64,000 nt of DNA, taken from Sideroxyarcus sp. GTDB lineage: Bacteria; Pseudomonadota; Gammaproteobacteria; Burkholderiales; Gallionellaceae. Positions 5,453-17,061 of the stretch are shown here, piece after piece. The position numbers and the translations under genes are program-made. Below the pieces are notes generated by a model. The model was not told where the DNA came from and did no database searches. It saw only the letters and a list, made by a program, of their open reading frames with translations. Within the stretch, counting starts at the first letter, position 1. Every line of letters begins with the position of its first letter. The stretch lies in NCBI GenBank assembly GCA_030651895.1, contig JAUSBR010000009.1, positions 1 through 64,000 on the forward strand. The letters are read 5' to 3'.

Positions 5453-5567
5453 GTGGTGAGCCTGTCGAACCATGAATGGCTCTCCGACAAATATGCCCTG
5501 AGCGCCGTTCGTTCCTTCGACTTGCCTTTAGTCCTGAGCCTGTCGAAGGGGCAGGACGAACGGGGTA
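5453..5567. repeat. Palindromic intergenic repeat (family A)
   Basis: Degenerate copies of the repeat core GTCCTGAGCCTGTCGAAGG and its inverted partner. The clearest arm pair, 5502-5566, runs from CCGTTCGTTCCTTCGAC to GGGGCAGGACGAACGG. It fills the gap between the thioredoxin/HEAT gene and yjbQ. Related copies lie at 8136-8388, 17565-17600, 18032-18090, 21594-21622, 31133-31239 and inside mfd at 61961-62065. Confidence 0.8.
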
Positions 5568-9592: not shown

Positions 9593-9656
9593 TACTTGGC
9601 TCTAGAATAACCGGGAGTTGTCCGTAATAGTTTTCGTCAGCCATACGAAAGGAAAC

Positions 9657-9881
9657 ATGATGAACAGAATCGACGTTCCTATTGCACAGCTTTCATTCAC
9701 CCAAAAATTGGATTTAATGGAAATGCTGTGGGCAGACATGGCAGGCAACGAAAATAATCTGGAATCTCCGGCATGGCATGGTGCGATCCTTAATGATCGC
9801 GAAGCTGCCCTGAATGCAGGCAAGGTAACCGTTTCAAACTGGGAAGAAGCCAAAGAAAGAATCAAGAAAAACGTCGCATGA
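9657..9881 (+). CDS. Addiction module antitoxin of the ParE/RelE-type pair
   Basis: A 74-residue protein with the form of the addiction module antitoxins found next to ParE-like toxins: an N-terminal segment LSFTQKLDLMEMLWADM, then a central WHGAILNDREAALNAG and a C-terminal helix SNWEEAKERIKKNV. Two adjacent ATGs (9657 and 9660) follow the ribosome site AAAGGAAA; the first is used here. The stop overlaps the toxin start as ATGA. It is expected to neutralise the toxin and repress the operon. Confidence 0.85.
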   Translation: MMNRIDVPIAQLSFTQKLDLMEMLWADMAGNENNLESPAWHGAILNDREAALNAGKVTVSNWEEAKERIKKNVA

Positions 9882-10171
9882 GGATAAAGATCCTCAGCGC
9901 CGCAGAGTGCGATCTCGAAGAAGGCCACCGGTTCTACGAAACACAAGCCGACGGTCTCGGCAATTATTTCCTGGACACGCTCTACTCCGACATTGACTCA
10001 CTGGCCTACTTTGCGGGCATACACCGCGTAGTGCTGGGCTACCACCGGTTACTCTCCAAACGTTTCCCATTCGCTGTTTATTATCGTGTCGCTAACGACG
10101 AAGTCATCGTATTCGCTGTTCTTGATTGCCGTCGAAATCCAAGCTGGATAAGGAAAAAGCTATCCAAGTGA
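9878..10171 (+). CDS. ParE/RelE superfamily toxin
   Basis: A 97-residue toxin of the RelE/ParE fold: helical N-terminus (AAECDLEEGHRFYETQA), then a beta sheet ending FAVYYRVANDEVIVFAVLDC and RRNPSWIRKKL. The core YYRV...VIVFAVLDCRRNP is typical of plasmid-stabilisation family members. Whether it attacks gyrase or mRNA cannot be decided from the sequence. It is translated with its antitoxin through a 4-base overlap and is part of the accessory region that leads to the RT island. Confidence 0.88.
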   Translation: MRIKILSAAECDLEEGHRFYETQADGLGNYFLDTLYSDIDSLAYFAGIHRVVLGYHRLLSKRFPFAVYYRVANDEVIVFAVLDCRRNPSWIRKKLSK

Positions 10172-10620: not shown

Positions 10621-11451
10621 TTGTCTCAACCGCAAGCCAACAACCAGAACCCGCTCTCCGCCAGCGAACCCTGGAACCTCGTCGCCGACGGCTACGCCGA
10701 GACCACCATGCTCGTGTTCGAGCAATTCGCCGACGAAGCCATCGCCGCCAGCAACCTCAAACCGAACTCCACCGTACTCGATGTCGCCTGTGGCCCCGGC
10801 ACACTCGCGCTCAGGCTTGCGCAGCATGCCGAACAAGTCCACGGCATCGACTTCTCCGAAGCCATGCTCGCCGTCTTCCGCAACAAGATCGAACAAGCCG
10901 GACACCGCAACATCGCCCTGCACTGCGGCGATGCGCAGACCCTGCCCTATGCGGATGCAAGCTTCGACGCCGCCTTCTCGCTGTTCGGCCTCATGTTCTT
11001 CCCCGACAGGCAAAAGGGCTTCGCCGAAATCCACCGCACCCTCAAACCGGGCGGCAGCATCGCCATCACCAGTTGGGCGCCCGTGGACCAATCGCCCGCC
11101 ATGCAAACCATGTTCGGCGCACTGCGCGCCATCAAGCCCGACCTGCCGCAACCGCAACGCTCCGTCACCACACTGGAGAACCCCGAACGCTTCAAACAAG
11201 AGATGGAAGAAGCCGGATTCCGCAACATCGAGATACGCAGCGTCACCAAAGCCTTCCCCACCGGCAGCACCGGCGAATTCTGGGACAACATGGTCAAGGG
11301 CAGCGCACCGATTCAGATGATGAAGAAGGGATTGGGTGAAGCGTTGTGGCGCGAGAAAGAAAAGCTCGCGCTGGCCTGGCTGGAGGAGACACTGCCTACG
11401 CTGAAGGGGCCGCTGACTTCGGATGCTTGGTTGGGGGTGGGGGTGAAGTGA
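10621..11451 (+). CDS. Class I SAM-dependent methyltransferase
   Basis: A 276-residue methyltransferase of the UbiE/BioC-like type. Motif I is VLDVACGPGTLALRLA, the acidic loop is VHGIDFSEAML and a later motif is RTLKPGGSIAITSW. The C-terminal part has no recognisable extra domain. The start is TTG at 10621 preceded by AGGGGAAG; no ATG is positioned better. It ends 28 bases before the primase-like gene of the RT island, but its base composition resembles the chromosome more than the island does. It may supply the island's promoter by read-through. Substrate unknown. Confidence 0.8.
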   Translation: MSQPQANNQNPLSASEPWNLVADGYAETTMLVFEQFADEAIAASNLKPNSTVLDVACGPGTLALRLAQHAEQVHGIDFSEAMLAVFRNKIEQAGHRNIALHCGDAQTLPYADASFDAAFSLFGLMFFPDRQKGFAEIHRTLKPGGSIAITSWAPVDQSPAMQTMFGALRAIKPDLPQPQRSVTTLENPERFKQEMEEAGFRNIEIRSVTKAFPTGSTGEFWDNMVKGSAPIQMMKKGLGEALWREKEKLALAWLEETLPTLKGPLTSDAWLGVGVK

Positions 11452-11479
11452 TAACTGCAAAAAAACTGTGGGCACCTGA

Positions 11480-12532
11480 ATGCCCTACGCCCGCATGAAT
11501 TTATCCTCAATAAGGGAGATTCCAGTAATCGAGGTAGCCACTCGCCTTGGCATTCAAGTACGTGGCACCAAGGCCATGTGCTTCTCCGGGCACGACAAGA
11601 ATTCACCAAGTTTATCCTTTCATAAGGCCCACAATACTTGGCGATGCTTTGGTGCATGCGGCAAGCATGGTGACACCATCGCATTGGTTATGGAGAAGGA
11701 AGGTGTGGACTTCAAGTCCGCTGTTGAGTGGCTTGCTCAAAACTTTGCTATCGATGTTGAGCCAGGCCGTCGTGGTCAGCGCAGGCAAACGCGTTCATGC
11801 ATAACCAAGAAAAGTACAATCATGGCAGCACCACTGCCAGAGTCAGAATATATTGCGGACCCTGAGTTGTATGCGTGGTTTATCAGCAAGTGCGATTTAG
11901 TCACAAGCGCAGCTGGGATCAAATATCTCGATTCTCATGGCATCTCATCAGAGACTGCTCAACGGTTTAACATCCGTCAGTTGAGTAAGCCTGGATATGC
12001 GTTGCAAAAGCTAGTGGAGACATGGGGCGAGCAACGAGTTTGCAGCAGTGGAATTGCCTGGTGCAAAGATGGTCACGCAGACAGGTTGATTTGGAACTCA
12101 TACGCGCTTTTATTCCCCTTCTACAACGATGGGCAGATCACGTACATTCAAGCCCGGATGATTGGCGGAGACAAAAAATTCCTAAACCTACGTGGCATTG
12201 TTAAACCGTTATTCAACATAGATCGACTTAGCGGACTTCAGCCAGGTCATACGGTACATCTCTGCGAAGGCGTTCCTGATGCAATCGCTCTTGAGTCTCA
12301 GAATCTAATCGGAATCGGCATTTTAGGTGCTACATCATTTCGAGCTGAGTGGGTGGATCGGTTCCTGAAATTCAGGGTAATCGTCCTCGGCGACGGCGAC
12401 CAAGCAGGCGCGAAATTTGCGAGTGACATTTCCCGATTCTTCATGGAACGCGGCAAGCCGGTGCAATGTATGTCGCTACCGAAGGGGAAGGATGTTGCGG
12501 ATGTGTTAGCTCAGGGAGGTAGTGCCAAATGA
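11480..12532 (+). CDS. CHC2 zinc-finger / Toprim primase-like protein
   Basis: A 350-residue DnaG-type primase fragment without helicase-interaction domain. The N-terminal zinc finger has C34, H38, C56 and C60 around SPSLSF and WRCFGAC. The central region carries a partial primase core (LLFPFYNDGQITYIQAR). The Toprim domain shows E263 in HLCEGVPDAIAL and D305/D307 in VIVLGDGDQAG, so the metal-binding residues for nucleotidyl transfer are intact. A stop immediately precedes the ATG at 11480. The gene ends in a 4-base ATGA overlap with the reverse transcriptase, so the two are translationally coupled. Base composition is AT-richer than in the flanks. Likely partner in a defence or retroelement system; not the housekeeping primase. 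Confidence 0.85.
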   Translation: MPYARMNLSSIREIPVIEVATRLGIQVRGTKAMCFSGHDKNSPSLSFHKAHNTWRCFGACGKHGDTIALVMEKEGVDFKSAVEWLAQNFAIDVEPGRRGQRRQTRSCITKKSTIMAAPLPESEYIADPELYAWFISKCDLVTSAAGIKYLDSHGISSETAQRFNIRQLSKPGYALQKLVETWGEQRVCSSGIAWCKDGHADRLIWNSYALLFPFYNDGQITYIQARMIGGDKKFLNLRGIVKPLFNIDRLSGLQPGHTVHLCEGVPDAIALESQNLIGIGILGATSFRAEWVDRFLKFRVIVLGDGDQAGAKFASDISRFFMERGKPVQCMSLPKGKDVADVLAQGGSAK

Positions 12533-15500
12533 GTTTTTTGCAATTAGTTACCGATCAATTGAACCTACGGTGGGCTTGGGAAAAGGTACGACGAGCTTCA
12601 GTGCCGGGAGACGTCTGGATTGACGAAATCGAACTGGCAGAATTTGAACTCGAATTGGAGCGCAATCTCCAAAGCATCGCCGCTGAGATTCGAAAGGGAC
12701 GCTATCGTCTACGCCCCCTTCGCCCAATGGCTTTCCCCAAGAACCCCTCGAAAGAAGGCGAACAGCGAGTGCGACAGTATTTCAATGTAGCCGTTCGCGA
12801 CCAAATCGCATGGACAGCGGTTGTAAACGTAATTGGTCCATATCTTGACCCGCAGATGCCTGCGTGGAGTTATGGGAACCGCCTGTTCCGCAGCATCTGG
12901 GTAGATACAGATAACGACGGGATACACCGTCGGAAGATTGGCAGGTATCGCCACACGTCCGGACAAATTTACCTCCCGTTTGGACAAAGCTGGCCTGTAT
13001 TTCGGCGACATGTGTTTCTCACCACGATGGCAATGAATGCCAAAGCGGGATCAGCGTCAACTGATCAGATGACGCAAGAGGATTCGGAGGAGCTAGACCT
13101 GCAGACGCGGTTAAAGGATGAACACCGCTGCCCTTTCGTTCAGAAAGAGTATTGGGTTAGCAAGAAGCCAGCAGATAGTAAAGAAAGTCTGTTCTGGTGC
13201 AGCGTCGATTTGGAAAAGTTCTATCCTTCACTAAAGCTCGCGGTCGTTCGCCAGAACATAATCGACTATCTCCCTGCCGATATCAAAGTCGATGCTGCGA
13301 ACCTGATCGATTCGATGATGAAATTCAAATTGGACACCGAGGAATGGGCCAAAAAAGAACTTGCAGAAATTGGCCTAAAAGCCAACCAACGTTCCTTTAA
13401 TGCAATCCCAACGGGCCTTTTTGTGGCTGGCTTCCTTGCGAATGTGGGGCTTCTCAAAGTGGATCTCGCGGTTGCAGAACGGCTGAAATCCCTGAATGTC
13501 GCCCATTTTCGCTTTGTTGATGACCATATTGTCTTGGCATACAGCTTTGACGACCTCGTTAACTGGATAGATGAGTATGTAGGCTTATTGGCTGATTCGG
13601 GTACGGGTGCAAGAGTCAATCCAGAAAAGATCGAACCAGAAGCTCTTGCAACATATTTTTCTTCCAGAAGGAAATCCAGAAAGAGTCTACGCGACGACTT
13701 TGACAGCGCTGCGAAGGCATGTAAATTAAACCCGCAATTTCCAACACCACTGATGACTAAGACACTCGCGCTCGTGTCCGCAATCGCGAGAATTGAGTTC
13801 GATTTGCTTGATGAAGGTGAGCTAATTGCTCTGACAGATCAGCTCGAACATATGCTCTTAGTTGACTTGCCTGAAGCAGAGATACCTGAGAAGACACGGC
13901 TTTCCTTCGCAGCTACCAGGCTTGTCAGATTGGCAGAGTGTCGCCTCTCAAGTAATGCAAGTTTGGTGCAACTCGCCTGCCAAGGACAGTACCTAGACGC
14001 AAACTTGGCCGACAAGGACCTATCAACTGAACAGCGGCAAAATCTGGCAGCGGAATTAAAAGACAACCAAGACAAATTGCAGAAACAACATCTTGCACTC
14101 GAACGAGAAGTTCGTAGGGCATTTGGCCTATTGCGCAAAGTCCTTCAGGAACGCCCTGACCGAGTTAGGCTTTGGACAAGAGCGATTCTTATGTGTCGCC
14201 AGACTGGTGTTATGGGTTTAAAAGATATTTTCGATGACATCCTTCGAGTAAAAAACGAAATCAACAACTCTTTGGCTGCTTCCTTGGCCGCTGAATACTT
14301 ACTCGCAAACACCTACTCGCTGTTAGGTTCCGAAGCAATCATTGCAGCACGACTTCTTGTCGACCCCAATGTCGCGGAATGGCGGAGAAAAGCCGCACGC
14401 TCTTTCCTGACAGATATTTCGAATGTGCCTCTAAACGAGCCGCCATCTTTTGGGCGACGCTGGTTTCTGCATACCAGTTGGAAACAATTCTGCTTCGGCA
14501 TATTTTGTGCGGATTTAATCATCAAGTCGACTTTGCCAGAAAATGATTGCTACAGATTGGTATTGCCTGCCAAAGTAATCGCGGAAGGTGAGCTGTGTCT
14601 AGTCGACAATACAGTTACGGAGCAATTCCAGAGTTTGGCGTGGTGGGCAGCAAAACCAGCTTTGCGGGAGCTATCTAGCCACGCGCCAAGCTGGGTCATA
14701 GAAATTGGCCGCCTATTACCGCCATCGTACAAATCTTTCGCATTCTGGCGCTTCTTCCCATTCGACGCTCCAGAGGCAGTGCTGCTGAGCATGAGTACTA
14801 ACAGGAAACATTCGCAAAATGTAGCTCAGATGGCGGGCTGGTGGTACGACGCACTTAGTGCAAGGGGAGATTTCGCGAAAAGTCTAATGTTAAAAGAGCG
14901 CTCGCCCGAAATTGCCAGTGCCGTGAGGAATCTCCAATCTGCGAGCAATTCGCGTTTTGTATCACTGCACGAGTGGTGCGATGATATTAGAAAGATTTAT
15001 GAACAAGACCCTTCAGATCCCAGAGCCAGTGAGTGGACTGCTCTAGAAATCGTCCGGCAGATATGTAAGCTCATAACTGACTCACAGCCATTTAGTACTG
15101 AGTATGCCGCGAAACAGAAAAACATACGTACCACCCCTCTATGCTTGCATCCTGCGAATTTTCGCGTTCCTAGAGAATGGCTGGAATTGGAATCGCTCAC
15201 GTGGGGCGACTGGGTAGATGCAATTTGCGACAACCAGTCGGCTGTACAAATAGCAAAAGTACCGGATGACCTCCATGTAATAGATTTTCGCTATGCGCCG
15301 GTCTCGAGTCCGGAGAATGCTCTCTTCGATTCTGTTAATCCTGTTCGCGGCCTTGGCTTGCTGCTTTATGGGCTGTTGCGCCACGACTTCAGCTTACCTT
15401 CTGTTTGGAACGGGCCAGGTCACGCCGATGTGCTGAACCTACTACCTCGGCATTTGCTAAGTGAAATGACATATTCATCGTTGACGCTAGGAGTCTTGCA

Positions 15501-15789
15501 GGGATGTTTACAACCACGTGCTATGGAGAACCTATTCTTCCTCGTGGAGGAATCCTTGGGGATTTACCTTGACGATGACTCCGGTCATGATCCGATAAAA
15601 TTCATTGATGCCAAACAAGTACGCCATGCAATTGAGAAGTGCAAATCCACTCTGGAAAAAAACCAACTTTCTACAATTAACCATCGAGCGAGACAATTGA
15701 CGCCAATAAGCATTCGACTTTTGTCCAAGCCGAACTGGACAAAGGCATTCGGTGACTTACAAGATGAAGGCGGGGCGAATGAGCACTAA
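12529..15789 (+). CDS. Large reverse transcriptase of the UG/defence-associated type
   Basis: A 1086-residue protein. The RT palm and fingers occupy roughly residues 40-400. Motif A is SVDLEKFYPSL (catalytic D227), motif B is NAIPTGLFVAGFLANV (residues 291-306) and the catalytic box is FRFVDDHIV (D331, D332), so the usual YxDD reads FVDD. About 690 C-terminal residues are mostly helical and carry no domain I recognise. No maturase, endonuclease or DGR features are present. The shape fits the UG/Abi group of host-beneficial RTs, several of which block phage. It overlaps the upstream primase-like gene by 4 bases and the downstream nitrilase gene by 11, an arrangement expected of one functional unit. 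AT-richer than its surroundings, so probably acquired. Confidence 0.88.
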   Translation: MSFLQLVTDQLNLRWAWEKVRRASVPGDVWIDEIELAEFELELERNLQSIAAEIRKGRYRLRPLRPMAFPKNPSKEGEQRVRQYFNVAVRDQIAWTAVVNVIGPYLDPQMPAWSYGNRLFRSIWVDTDNDGIHRRKIGRYRHTSGQIYLPFGQSWPVFRRHVFLTTMAMNAKAGSASTDQMTQEDSEELDLQTRLKDEHRCPFVQKEYWVSKKPADSKESLFWCSVDLEKFYPSLKLAVVRQNIIDYLPADIKVDAANLIDSMMKFKLDTEEWAKKELAEIGLKANQRSFNAIPTGLFVAGFLANVGLLKVDLAVAERLKSLNVAHFRFVDDHIVLAYSFDDLVNWIDEYVGLLADSGTGARVNPEKIEPEALATYFSSRRKSRKSLRDDFDSAAKACKLNPQFPTPLMTKTLALVSAIARIEFDLLDEGELIALTDQLEHMLLVDLPEAEIPEKTRLSFAATRLVRLAECRLSSNASLVQLACQGQYLDANLADKDLSTEQRQNLAAELKDNQDKLQKQHLALEREVRRAFGLLRKVLQERPDRVRLWTRAILMCRQTGVMGLKDIFDDILRVKNEINNSLAASLAAEYLLANTYSLLGSEAIIAARLLVDPNVAEWRRKAARSFLTDISNVPLNEPPSFGRRWFLHTSWKQFCFGIFCADLIIKSTLPENDCYRLVLPAKVIAEGELCLVDNTVTEQFQSLAWWAAKPALRELSSHAPSWVIEIGRLLPPSYKSFAFWRFFPFDAPEAVLLSMSTNRKHSQNVAQMAGWWYDALSARGDFAKSLMLKERSPEIASAVRNLQSASNSRFVSLHEWCDDIRKIYEQDPSDPRASEWTALEIVRQICKLITDSQPFSTEYAAKQKNIRTTPLCLHPANFRVPREWLELESLTWGDWVDAICDNQSAVQIAKVPDDLHVIDFRYAPVSSPENALFDSVNPVRGLGLLLYGLLRHDFSLPSVWNGPGHADVLNLLPRHLLSEMTYSSLTLGVLQGCLQPRAMENLFFLVEESLGIYLDDDSGHDPIKFIDAKQVRHAIEKCKSTLEKNQLSTINHRARQLTPISIRLLSKPNWTKAFGDLQDEGGANEH

Positions 15790-16708
15790 ATTGGAATACG
15801 ACGAGTACCTGCCAGTAGGCATCATCCAAACTACTGTAAATTCATTGCTAGCTTGGCCTCGAAATACTTCATTTCCGCAAATGTCGTCACCGCAAGACGC
15901 GCACGTATGGCAGGAAATCTGCAAGGCTATGAGGGCATTTAAGGACGGAGATGATGCACCCAAGTTGGTTGTTCTTCCAGAGTTGACCCTGCCTCGAACA
16001 CGACTCAATGACTTTGAGAAGCTGGTTGCCAGCCTTAATGTCATTGCATTTGTTGGTGTTGACTATCGATTAGATCGTACAGCAAAGCGTGTATGGAATG
16101 AGGGTATGGTATTCATCCCTAATCGTTTCTGGGAAGGGAAGCGCTCACGTGGTTGCACGCGCGTTGCTTTTGGCAAGACGCATGCAGCACCAGCAGAAAG
16201 TGCTGCGCTTGAAGGGCTCTCCCCTCCGTGGTCATATCGCGGGGACGACAAGGTCTACATTTTTGACGCGGAACATCTTGGTCGAATTGGCGTGAGCATT
16301 TGCTACGACTTTATGGACCTTGAACGCGCAGTCTTGTATCGCGGACGCGTACATCACCTTTTTGTGTTGGCTTATAACAAAGACCTGGGAATGTTTAGAT
16401 CTCTAGCAGACTCCCTATCACGGACGGTCTATTGCAATGTTGTTGTATGCAACACTGGATTCTATGGAGGGTCCGTTGCTGTCGCGCCTTATCACGCAGC
16501 ATACAAAAGGACCCTTTATTCTCACGATGGAAACGGACTCTTCACCACGCAGGTTATTAATTTGCCTGTCAGAGGAGTTGAGCAAGCTTTGAATGGAATA
16601 AATAAGCCGGTTAAGTCAAAAGAGCGAGCTGAGAAGATTTTCAAAGACCCCCCTCCTGGATTAATCAAACACGTTGACTACACTTTGACCAAAAAAGTGC
16701 TTAAGTAA
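15779..16708 (+). CDS. Carbon-nitrogen hydrolase (nitrilase superfamily), RT-associated
   Basis: A 309-residue nitrilase-fold protein with the full catalytic triad: E68 in LVVLPELTLP, K133 in VAFGKTHAAPAE and C175 in IGVSICYDF. The start ATG at 15779, with GAAGG upstream, overlaps the RT stop; in-frame ATGs at 15752 and 15764 are alternatives. In the known DRT type 1 (UG1) antiphage systems a nitrilase domain is fused to the C-terminus of the RT; here it is a separate, coupled gene. The substrate is unknown for all RT-linked nitrilases I know of. A terminator follows after 72 bases. Confidence 0.88.
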   Translation: MSTKLEYDEYLPVGIIQTTVNSLLAWPRNTSFPQMSSPQDAHVWQEICKAMRAFKDGDDAPKLVVLPELTLPRTRLNDFEKLVASLNVIAFVGVDYRLDRTAKRVWNEGMVFIPNRFWEGKRSRGCTRVAFGKTHAAPAESAALEGLSPPWSYRGDDKVYIFDAEHLGRIGVSICYDFMDLERAVLYRGRVHHLFVLAYNKDLGMFRSLADSLSRTVYCNVVVCNTGFYGGSVAVAPYHAAYKRTLYSHDGNGLFTTQVINLPVRGVEQALNGINKPVKSKERAEKIFKDPPPGLIKHVDYTLTKKVLK

Positions 16709-17061
16709 TCGTCAGAATTGCACGGGGTGAATCAATCAGAGTGATATGGGATCAGCATCGAAATACTTTCTATGAAAAATGCCCGGCATCGCCGGGCTTC
16801 TTCTTTTCAGTGTACTAAACGCCCCCCCGCCGAGCGCTGTGCACAGATCGCGCCAATCTTCGCCATAACCAATTATATTGAGCACCAATATCAGGACGTC
16901 GAAGTGCGCCTGAAAGCCCTGCACCGCAACAACCATCACCCGCGTCAGGCCATGGAAACTGTGGCAAAGTCTACCGGATACCCGCCTTAACCGGCCCGCA
17001 TCCATTACACTCTCGCCCTCAAGTCCGTCTCGGACGCACGCTAACTCTGCAAAGGTTCACC
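16709..17061. other. Gap after the RT island
   Basis: This 353-base stretch contains the terminator at 16781-16806. A possible 72-codon frame starting at 16772 runs through the terminator and has no supporting ribosome site. No RNA gene, repeat or attachment site was recognised. It is the right boundary between AT-richer island sequence and GC-rich chromosome. Confidence 0.6.
16781..16806 (+). terminator. Rho-independent terminator of the RT island
   Basis: The stem GCCCGGC/GCCGGGC with an ATC loop is followed by TTCTTCTTTT. The stem is identical to that of four other terminators in the window, so it may belong to the host chromosome rather than to the incoming island. Confidence 0.8.

Follow-up and report, generated by a model that had tools for sequence, protein, structure and literature searches.

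Three overlapping genes in a 64,000-nucleotide stretch of Sideroxyarcus sp. DNA (contig JAUSBR010000009.1, positions 1 to 64,000; hereafter the window) encode a DnaG-like primase, a large reverse transcriptase (RT) and a stand-alone nitrilase. By sequence this trio is a complete member of the catalogued UG/Abi group UG6, not a new gene combination, and its RT and nitrilase are related to DRT1, a class 3 system of the defence RTs (DRTs). The trio is real and intact and very probably serves in defence, and we consider it rather probable that it is, as a whole, a three-gene relative of DRT1 that acts against phages, most likely by abortive infection through the steps proposed below.

The trio belongs to the catalogued group UG6

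The RT matched the PADLOC model RT_UG6 with 861.7 bits over model positions 2-921 of 925, followed by the general RT model (72.7 bits), UG21 (44.8), UG19 (42.2), Drt1a (41.9) and UG17 (40.2). It is a clear RT_UG6 member, in agreement with the first-pass annotation of the window, which had called it a UG/Abi-group RT. The primase and the nitrilase matched the models RTasDnaG-like (303.5 bits) and RTasNitrilase (324.6 bits), and, as these names indicate, both partners are already modelled as RT-associated genes; we saw no essential difference between the window trio and the set RT_UG6, RTasDnaG-like and RTasNitrilase. DnaG-like and nitrilase partners were reportedly assigned to UG6 by Mestre and others in 2022, in work that is also said to be the source of the PADLOC RT-associated models. 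The first-pass annotation had taken the combination to be undescribed, and with the class and both partner models in existence this part of its interpretation is not supported, whereas its UG/Abi RT, DRT1-type nitrilase, DnaG core and conserved neighbourhood were all recovered. A UG6 RT is shown beside a nitrilase neighbour in PMC8934634, which names dnaG among the occasional neighbour domains of RTs in general.

Since the RT (22.6 bits against Pfam RVT_1, cut-off 29.6) and the nitrilase (18.6 bits against CN_hydrolase, cut-off 23.2) both fall below the Pfam cut-offs, their identity rests on the PADLOC models, on invariant residues and on profile comparisons. All 39 RTs in our alignment matched RT_UG6 and all 41 aligned primases matched RTasDnaG-like, the window being included in each set. 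The catalytic residues proposed earlier for the primase (E263, D305 and D307) and the RT (D227, D331 and D332) are present as numbered, and their conservation is given in Table 1 with the positions of the features. The Glu-Lys-Cys triad of the nitrilase (E68, K133 and C175) is invariant in all 42 aligned rows; the numbering claimed for it is right when counted from the ATG, not when counted from the alternative upstream GTG at 15752, which is the start used in the open reading frame (ORF) list. Overlaps of 4 and 11 bases are likewise found in the relative L040, which supports the ATG start. The AlphaFold model of the RT (predicted local distance difference test, pLDDT, 84.0; predicted template modelling score, pTM, 0.88) has an RT domain and, in addition, an extended helical region.

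The ORF coordinates give the gene overlaps that had been noted, 4 bases between primase and RT and 11 between RT and nitrilase. The trio had also been described as AT-richer than both flanks, and indeed the G+C fraction of 11480-16708 is 0.486, as compared with 0.579 in each 5-kb flank and 0.596 in the rest of the window; when a frame of that size was moved along in steps of 100, none of the 483 placements without overlap with the island was as low.

Table 1. Positions of the trio, its domains and catalytic residues, and the bordering features of the window
Feature	Position	Strand	Remarks
DnaG-like primase gene	11480-12532	+	ORF of 350 amino acids; CHC2 zinc finger, RNA-polymerase fold, Toprim; without helicase-binding C-terminus
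CHC2 zinc-binding domain	11522-11761	+	C34, H38, C56 and C60 invariant in 41/41 rows
Toprim domain	12254-12517	+	E263, D267, D305, D307 and D338 invariant in 41/41 rows
UG6 reverse transcriptase gene	12529-15789	+	ORF of 1086 amino acids; RT domain, then long all-helical region
RT catalytic Asp D227	13207-13209	+	Invariant in 39/39 rows
RT catalytic D331-D332, motif FVDDH	13519-13524	+	Invariant in 39/39 rows
Stand-alone nitrilase gene	15779-16708	+	309 amino acids counted from ATG
UbiE-like methyltransferase gene	10621-11451	+	Pfam; flank, outside the system; 3' end is left border of the variable site
Island unmatched by the DNA of relatives at this site	11453-16739	.	blastn
Terminator-like hairpin	16781-16797	+	Just past the island, on the conserved right flank

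The three genes stay together and evolve as a unit

A single scan of 84,980 species genomes, with four conserved stretches of the RT as query, gave 44 related loci; the scan used exact peptide patterns, so that it favours relatives with those motifs and is no census. Primase, RT and nitrilase occur in the window's order, mostly overlapping, in 40 of the 44 loci, which bears out the conserved neighbourhood that the co-occurrence check was to look for. The same count places the trio in a described UG class whose members carry this primase and nitrilase pair, the outcome that had been named beforehand as speaking against the first-pass annotation. The other four loci are cut by contig ends or decayed: L039 ends inside the nitrilase, the contig of L077 begins inside the RT, L082 is a decayed RT fragment alone, and L075 has lost most of its primase (see below). 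Overall a primase was found in 41 loci, and the nitrilase gene adjoins the RT in 42. Three of the 40 full loci (L063, L067 and L070) have a split RT frame, and in a Proteiniphilum metagenome-assembled genome (MAG) primase and RT are fused into a single open frame of 1467 amino acids (L062:8711-13114).

The alignments were drawn from these loci and the window. That of the RTs (39 rows) leaves out L062 (fused), L063, L067 and L070 (split frame), L077 (contig edge) and L082 (decayed); that of the primases (41 rows) leaves out L062, and that of the nitrilases (42 rows) L067, which has a short start. Two of the loci, L048 and L080, are nearly the same and enter the counts separately. In 37 sets including the window, the protein distance matrices were correlated at 0.964 for primase and RT, 0.951 for RT and nitrilase and 0.915 for primase and nitrilase, values that none of 999 permutations reached. 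We conclude from these correlations that the three proteins evolve as a unit.

Going by record titles and tree labels, Pseudomonadota predominate among the hosts, with 29 of the 39 rows of the tree; Bacteroidota account for 3 and Campylobacterota for 2, and there are MAGs labelled Verrucomicrobiota and Chlorobiota. The RT tree unites the window, L039 and L040 in one group with support 100/99, and the latter two loci, from MAGs labelled Chlorobiota and Verrucomicrobiota, also hold its nearest RTs at 66 and 67 % identity, as against only 41-42 % identity to the seven betaproteobacterial RTs in the alignment. UG6 is uncommon among the host's own relatives. Within the window's phylum, 14 of 398 genomes matched the UG6 family at E ≤ 0.001, and within its order 15 of 399 genomes matched the UG6 protein; in both searches only the window's own genome exceeded 30 bits. 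Horizontal spread of the UG6 trio is likely, though the labels of MAG contigs can be wrong.

The reverse transcriptase and nitrilase are related to DRT1

When a profile of the 39 UG6 RTs was compared with the PDB, DRT1 (9yfd) was the best chain at E 3.4e-11, the next best standing at 0.035. A global profile comparison of the UG6 RTs with four DRT1-like RTs aligned 731 columns (99.9 %, E 2e-31); L003, the one of these four that was scanned, matched Drt1a with 762.6 bits. In a control, the UG6 profile was compared singly with 35 ORFs that carry an RT-like motif and come from 31 fetched loci. It can be seen that the four DRT1-like RTs rank first (139, 138, 124 and 120), followed by L004 (113) and L013 (108), whereas most group II intron-like RTs scored less than 92. 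Of the four DRT1-like RTs, three gave alignments that continue beyond the RT domain to about residue 470. Across the 39 UG6 RTs, Drt1a matches 37, UG19 27 and UG21 19. The sole PDB match of the nitrilase at E ≤ 0.1 was again DRT1 (9yfd, E 5.6e-11). The stand-alone nitrilase thus matches only the DRT1 domain in the PDB, and the earlier view of it as a separate counterpart of that domain holds. On these profile comparisons we conclude that the RT and nitrilase of UG6 are related to DRT1; they favour DRT1 as the nearest RT without being decisive.

DRT1 is described as a single-gene system that makes template-free, serine-primed DNA and forms filaments, and its abortive defence requires both RT and nitrilase activity (PMC13275509). 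DRT1 (UG1) has the RT, part of the helical region and the kind of nitrilase in common with UG6, which differs in having a separate nitrilase and an additional primase and in that the priming serine of DRT1 is seemingly not conserved. In its strict wording class 3 comprises RTs with a nitrilase or phosphohydrolase domain within the RT protein (PMC13275509), and UG6 falls outside this wording, the nitrilase having a gene of its own in the window and in each of the 42 loci that yielded one.

Partial likenesses exist to other systems. A Leptospira plasmid locus recovered as a nitrilase match (L036:3244-7475) carries a UG5-like RT-nitrilase fusion gene with a 3'-5' exonuclease gene 11 bases after it. 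Such UG5-nitrilase RTs combine RT and nitrilase as UG6 does, but here the nitrilase is fused, the RT is weakly UG6-like (12.9 bits) and no primase is annotated within 12.6 kb. The PADLOC profile of UG29 opens with a stretch resembling DnaG and later contains one resembling an RT, as in the primase and RT of UG6; it is, however, a single profile of 2280 positions, to which the window nitrilase has no match up to E 0.1. Primases of the AE_Prim_S_like type are unrelated to DnaG and Toprim. It is to this type that the primase of DRT7 (UG10) belongs (PMC8934634); DRT7, an RT fused to a primase-polymerase, combines RT and primase domain as UG6 does (PMC13213688), with no mention of a nitrilase.

The first gene encodes a DnaG core

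The first gene had been called a DnaG-type primase, and this was confirmed for the DnaG core. The protein matched Zn_ribbon_DnaG (47.8 bits) and Toprim_2 (31.8 bits) in Pfam, and its profile matched the zinc-binding and catalytic parts of Aquifex DnaG in the PDB (2au3, E 4.1e-28), the portion that it has in common with bacterial DnaG. The predicted structure (pLDDT 89.7, pTM 0.67) likewise found 2au3 as its best Foldseek match (E 5.7e-16, template modelling score 0.51 by query length). The root-mean-square deviation on 2au3 is 21.7 across both domains; other DnaG catalytic cores superpose at 3.3-3.6. We take C34, H38, C56 and C60 to be the zinc ligands. Cellular DnaG has a helicase-binding domain, whereas the window primase stops after Toprim and, at 84.6 bits, stays far below the dnaG cut-off of 283.6.

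The trio occupies a defence hotspot

The trio follows a methyltransferase gene. Methyltransferase-like genes occur in all 60 genomes of the family searched at E 0.001, only some of them being close homologues. We compared the site with 19 relative regions, in which blastn (E 1e-5) gave no match to the trio DNA between 11483 and 16738. In most of these regions homology stops at or near 11452, and in some it restarts at about 16740. Both flanks are present in one region in eight of the 19 (L095, L096, L097, L102, L106, L107, L109 and L111), with 2.7-4.7 kb of other DNA in between; the left flank in these eight is the methyltransferase or its 3' part, and the right flank, which restarts at 16739-17043, amounts in L097 to only 61 bases. 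Seven of the 19 regions have, farther along, a second and incomplete copy of the methyltransferase 3' end, and none is present in the window.

From each of ten of the 19 regions one large ORF was chosen by hand and scanned. Seven matched PADLOC models, six of them strongly: AriAB with 871 bits (L096), LmuB with 699 (L103), PDC-S60 with 317 and ThsB with 163 (L102), Orf5 with 254 and HEC-06 with 200 (L106), Hp2 with 145 (L099) and REase_II with 135 (L111). The match in L097 was weak (60 bits), and the ORFs of L095, L105 and L107 gave no PADLOC match. Among the seven both-flank regions scanned, out of eight, four gave strong matches, one a weak match and two none. AriAB and LmuB are components of PARIS and Lamassu, and across the relatives (L095-L113) the cargo at the site is PARIS-, Lamassu-, GmrSD-, TIR- and restriction-like in kind. 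In a comparison scan of ten window genes outside the island, a generic match to a methyltransferase and a weak match to a repeat were obtained. On this comparison the site behind the methyltransferase gene is a defence hotspot, and its location speaks for a defence role of the trio more strongly than any other indirect evidence. What the analysis shows is the family to which the trio belongs, its constant gene order, the intactness of its active sites, the relation to DRT1 and the hotspot.

A reading in which the trio has no part in defence and is a mobile retroelement or replication module, copying itself by primase and RT, appears very improbable to us. Relatives of the primase do occur on plasmids (51 of 72,556 plasmid records), yet in none of the four of these 51 whose annotation was read does an RT lie alongside, and the RT itself had no match at E 1e-5 in the same 72,556 plasmid and in 50,697 phage records. 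The DRT1-like character of the nitrilase and the other defence genes that relatives hold at the site also speak against such a module, and we know of no role of a nitrilase in replication. Plasmid CHC2 proteins, which were considered as RT partners, were rejected as such on the same four records. In further searches neither the RT nor the nitrilase had a match among IMG/VR viral contigs, and the first 1072 bases of the RT gene had none in E. coli genomes. None of the island's three genes encodes an integrase; the remainder of the window was not searched for one.

Exonuclease genes recur beside UG6 systems elsewhere

Flanking genes were clustered from up to two ORFs per side (159 ORFs; L039, L077, L082 and ORFs of at least 1500 amino acids were left out). 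Two families of 3'-5' exonuclease were found near the trio, a DnaQ type at 13 loci and an SbcB type at 5; by tblastn, 18 of the 44 loci have one. The DnaQ-type genes (L045, L047, L048, L049, L051, L053, L055, L056, L060, L063, L064, L078 and L080) lie within 11 bases of the trio in 12 of 13 cases, that of L064 being 89 bases away. All 13 proteins matched only the general DEDDh and the candidate PDC-S48 models of PADLOC, and no RT-associated model. The SbcB-type genes (L054, L068, L069, L074 and L075) lie 42, 90, 124, 170 and 758 bases from the trio, the last on the other strand past another gene; two of the five proteins were scanned and matched RTasSbcB with 448.5 and 653.7 bits. Neither type was found in the 64-kb window at E 1e-4.

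Nucleases that restrain RT-made DNA have been reported for DRT9 and DRT3 (PMC12483538, PMC13174585), and the recurrence of an exonuclease near UG6 fits this reported check by a host nuclease on RT-made DNA. To what is catalogued for UG6 the present analysis adds the hotspot location, the primase-RT fusion and the nearby exonucleases, including the DnaQ type without an RT-associated PADLOC model.

A proposed mechanism

We infer the defence function itself, the primer role of the primase, the trigger and the following four steps from the comparisons above. In the first step the RT would make single-stranded DNA without a dedicated non-coding RNA. In the second, the DnaG-like primase would supply, or help to supply, the start, either as a short RNA primer or by priming the second strand on the RT product. 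In the third, the RT-DNA complex would recruit or assemble the separate nitrilase, the counterpart of the C-terminal domain fused in DRT1, and keep it ready. In the fourth, a phage event that alters the DNA product (a helicase, an end-binding protein or loss of a nuclease) would free the nitrilase, which may then attack an essential molecule bearing an amide or amine, so that the infected cell stops.

A more specific version, which is possible and which we put forward only tentatively, is that the defence RT of UG6 starts from RNA primers. These would come from a dedicated primase of the DnaG type and replace the protein or non-coding RNA start of the studied DRTs; the hybrid strand would control a nitrilase toxin encoded separately, and many lineages would have a dedicated 3'-5' exonuclease that restrains the product until infection.

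Points against the proposal and alternative routes of priming

Several observations weigh against the abortive-defence mechanism and its derivation from DRT1. Taken alone in PADLOC, the window RT does not set Drt1a (41.9 bits) apart from UG21 (44.8) and UG19 (42.2). A single-sequence search of the PDB with the window RT missed DRT1 and gave only group II intron RTs at E ≥ 0.045, and Foldseek with the RT model gave RT domains of group II introns, diversity-generating retroelements, retrons, Abi and several DRTs; 9yfd was absent from these structural matches, though the profile search of the PDB found it. The presumed UG6 column for the DRT1 priming serine S402, located by counting from the DD motif, has no conserved hydroxyl. 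In L075 the RT and nitrilase frames are open, and the primase is reduced to a 27-residue remnant (upstream of 9761). The ten genes scanned beside the island in the window include no specific defence gene, and a literature search for UG6 found no experimental study of any member. Lastly, in seven betaproteobacterial loci (L041, L042, L043, L044, L050, L052 and L079; 21 pairs) the DNA upstream of the primase can be aligned in 15 pairs and that downstream of the nitrilase in 8, so that these loci may hold an RNA element.

This last point could be extended to UG6 as a whole, with an RNA template hidden upstream, downstream or in the coding region and a mode of working like that of class 2 DRTs. 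We regard this as improbable. In two alphaproteobacterial sets the upstream DNA was alignable in only 1 of 21 and 0 of 28 pairs. We read some of the upstream signal in the betaproteobacteria as being, by its look, the true start of the primase gene. In the window gene 1 starts only 28 bases after the methyltransferase gene, which, together with the overlaps within the trio, leaves little room for a separate non-coding RNA. In the island of the window Rfam found nothing up to E 1, and in six relative loci only a tRNA. A conserved upstream RNA as a general feature of UG6 is thus not supported by the alphaproteobacterial pairs or by Rfam. The alignable signal downstream in sphingomonads takes in the exonuclease gene.

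The special question that UG6 raises is the role of the primase. Since the priming serine has no evident UG6 counterpart, protein priming like that of DRT1 cannot be assumed. The apparent lack of the serine is equally no proof of priming by the primase, because conservation of the DRT1 serine does not extend to the other class 3 DRTs and DRT5 still gave protein-linked DNA (PMC13275509). It is conceivable, if unlikely in our estimation, that the same system works with an RT that is protein-primed and template-free as in DRT1, the primase being a sensor or a second enzyme which, for example, makes RNA on single-stranded phage DNA or copies the RT product to a duplex. Purified class 3 DRTs make DNA that is covalently linked to protein (PMC13275509), the UG6 RTs do have conserved hydroxyls elsewhere (T412 and S417 in 39 of 39 rows, S983 in 38), and L075 has kept RT and nitrilase with its primase nearly gone. 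Against this reading stand the presence of the primase in 41 of the 44 loci, with the named residues invariant over 41 rows, its fusion to the RT in L062 and the description of DRT1 as a system of one gene.

Other features of the window

Upstream of the methyltransferase gene a toxin-antitoxin-like pair lies at 9618-10171 (Unstab_antitox and a ParE-like protein slightly below the Pfam cut-off). An interspersed repeat, CTTCGACAGGCTCAGGGCGAAC, occurs in seven copies with up to 3 mismatches, at 5527, 8139, 8249, 8356, 17570, 21597 and 31135; no copies are expected by chance. A scan for terminator-like hairpins, one of which is listed in Table 1, gave 8 as compared with 7.1 expected, which is not above chance.

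Implications

The class 3 defence RTs have been called the least characterised (PMC13275509). UG6 spreads the functions of the single DRT1 gene over three genes and adds a primase that is rarely lost, and in this respect it is a natural dissection, in which RT, effector and priming could each be removed alone. Study of UG6 could therefore reveal whether a DnaG-type primase can start a bacterial RT, and what the nitrilase targets.

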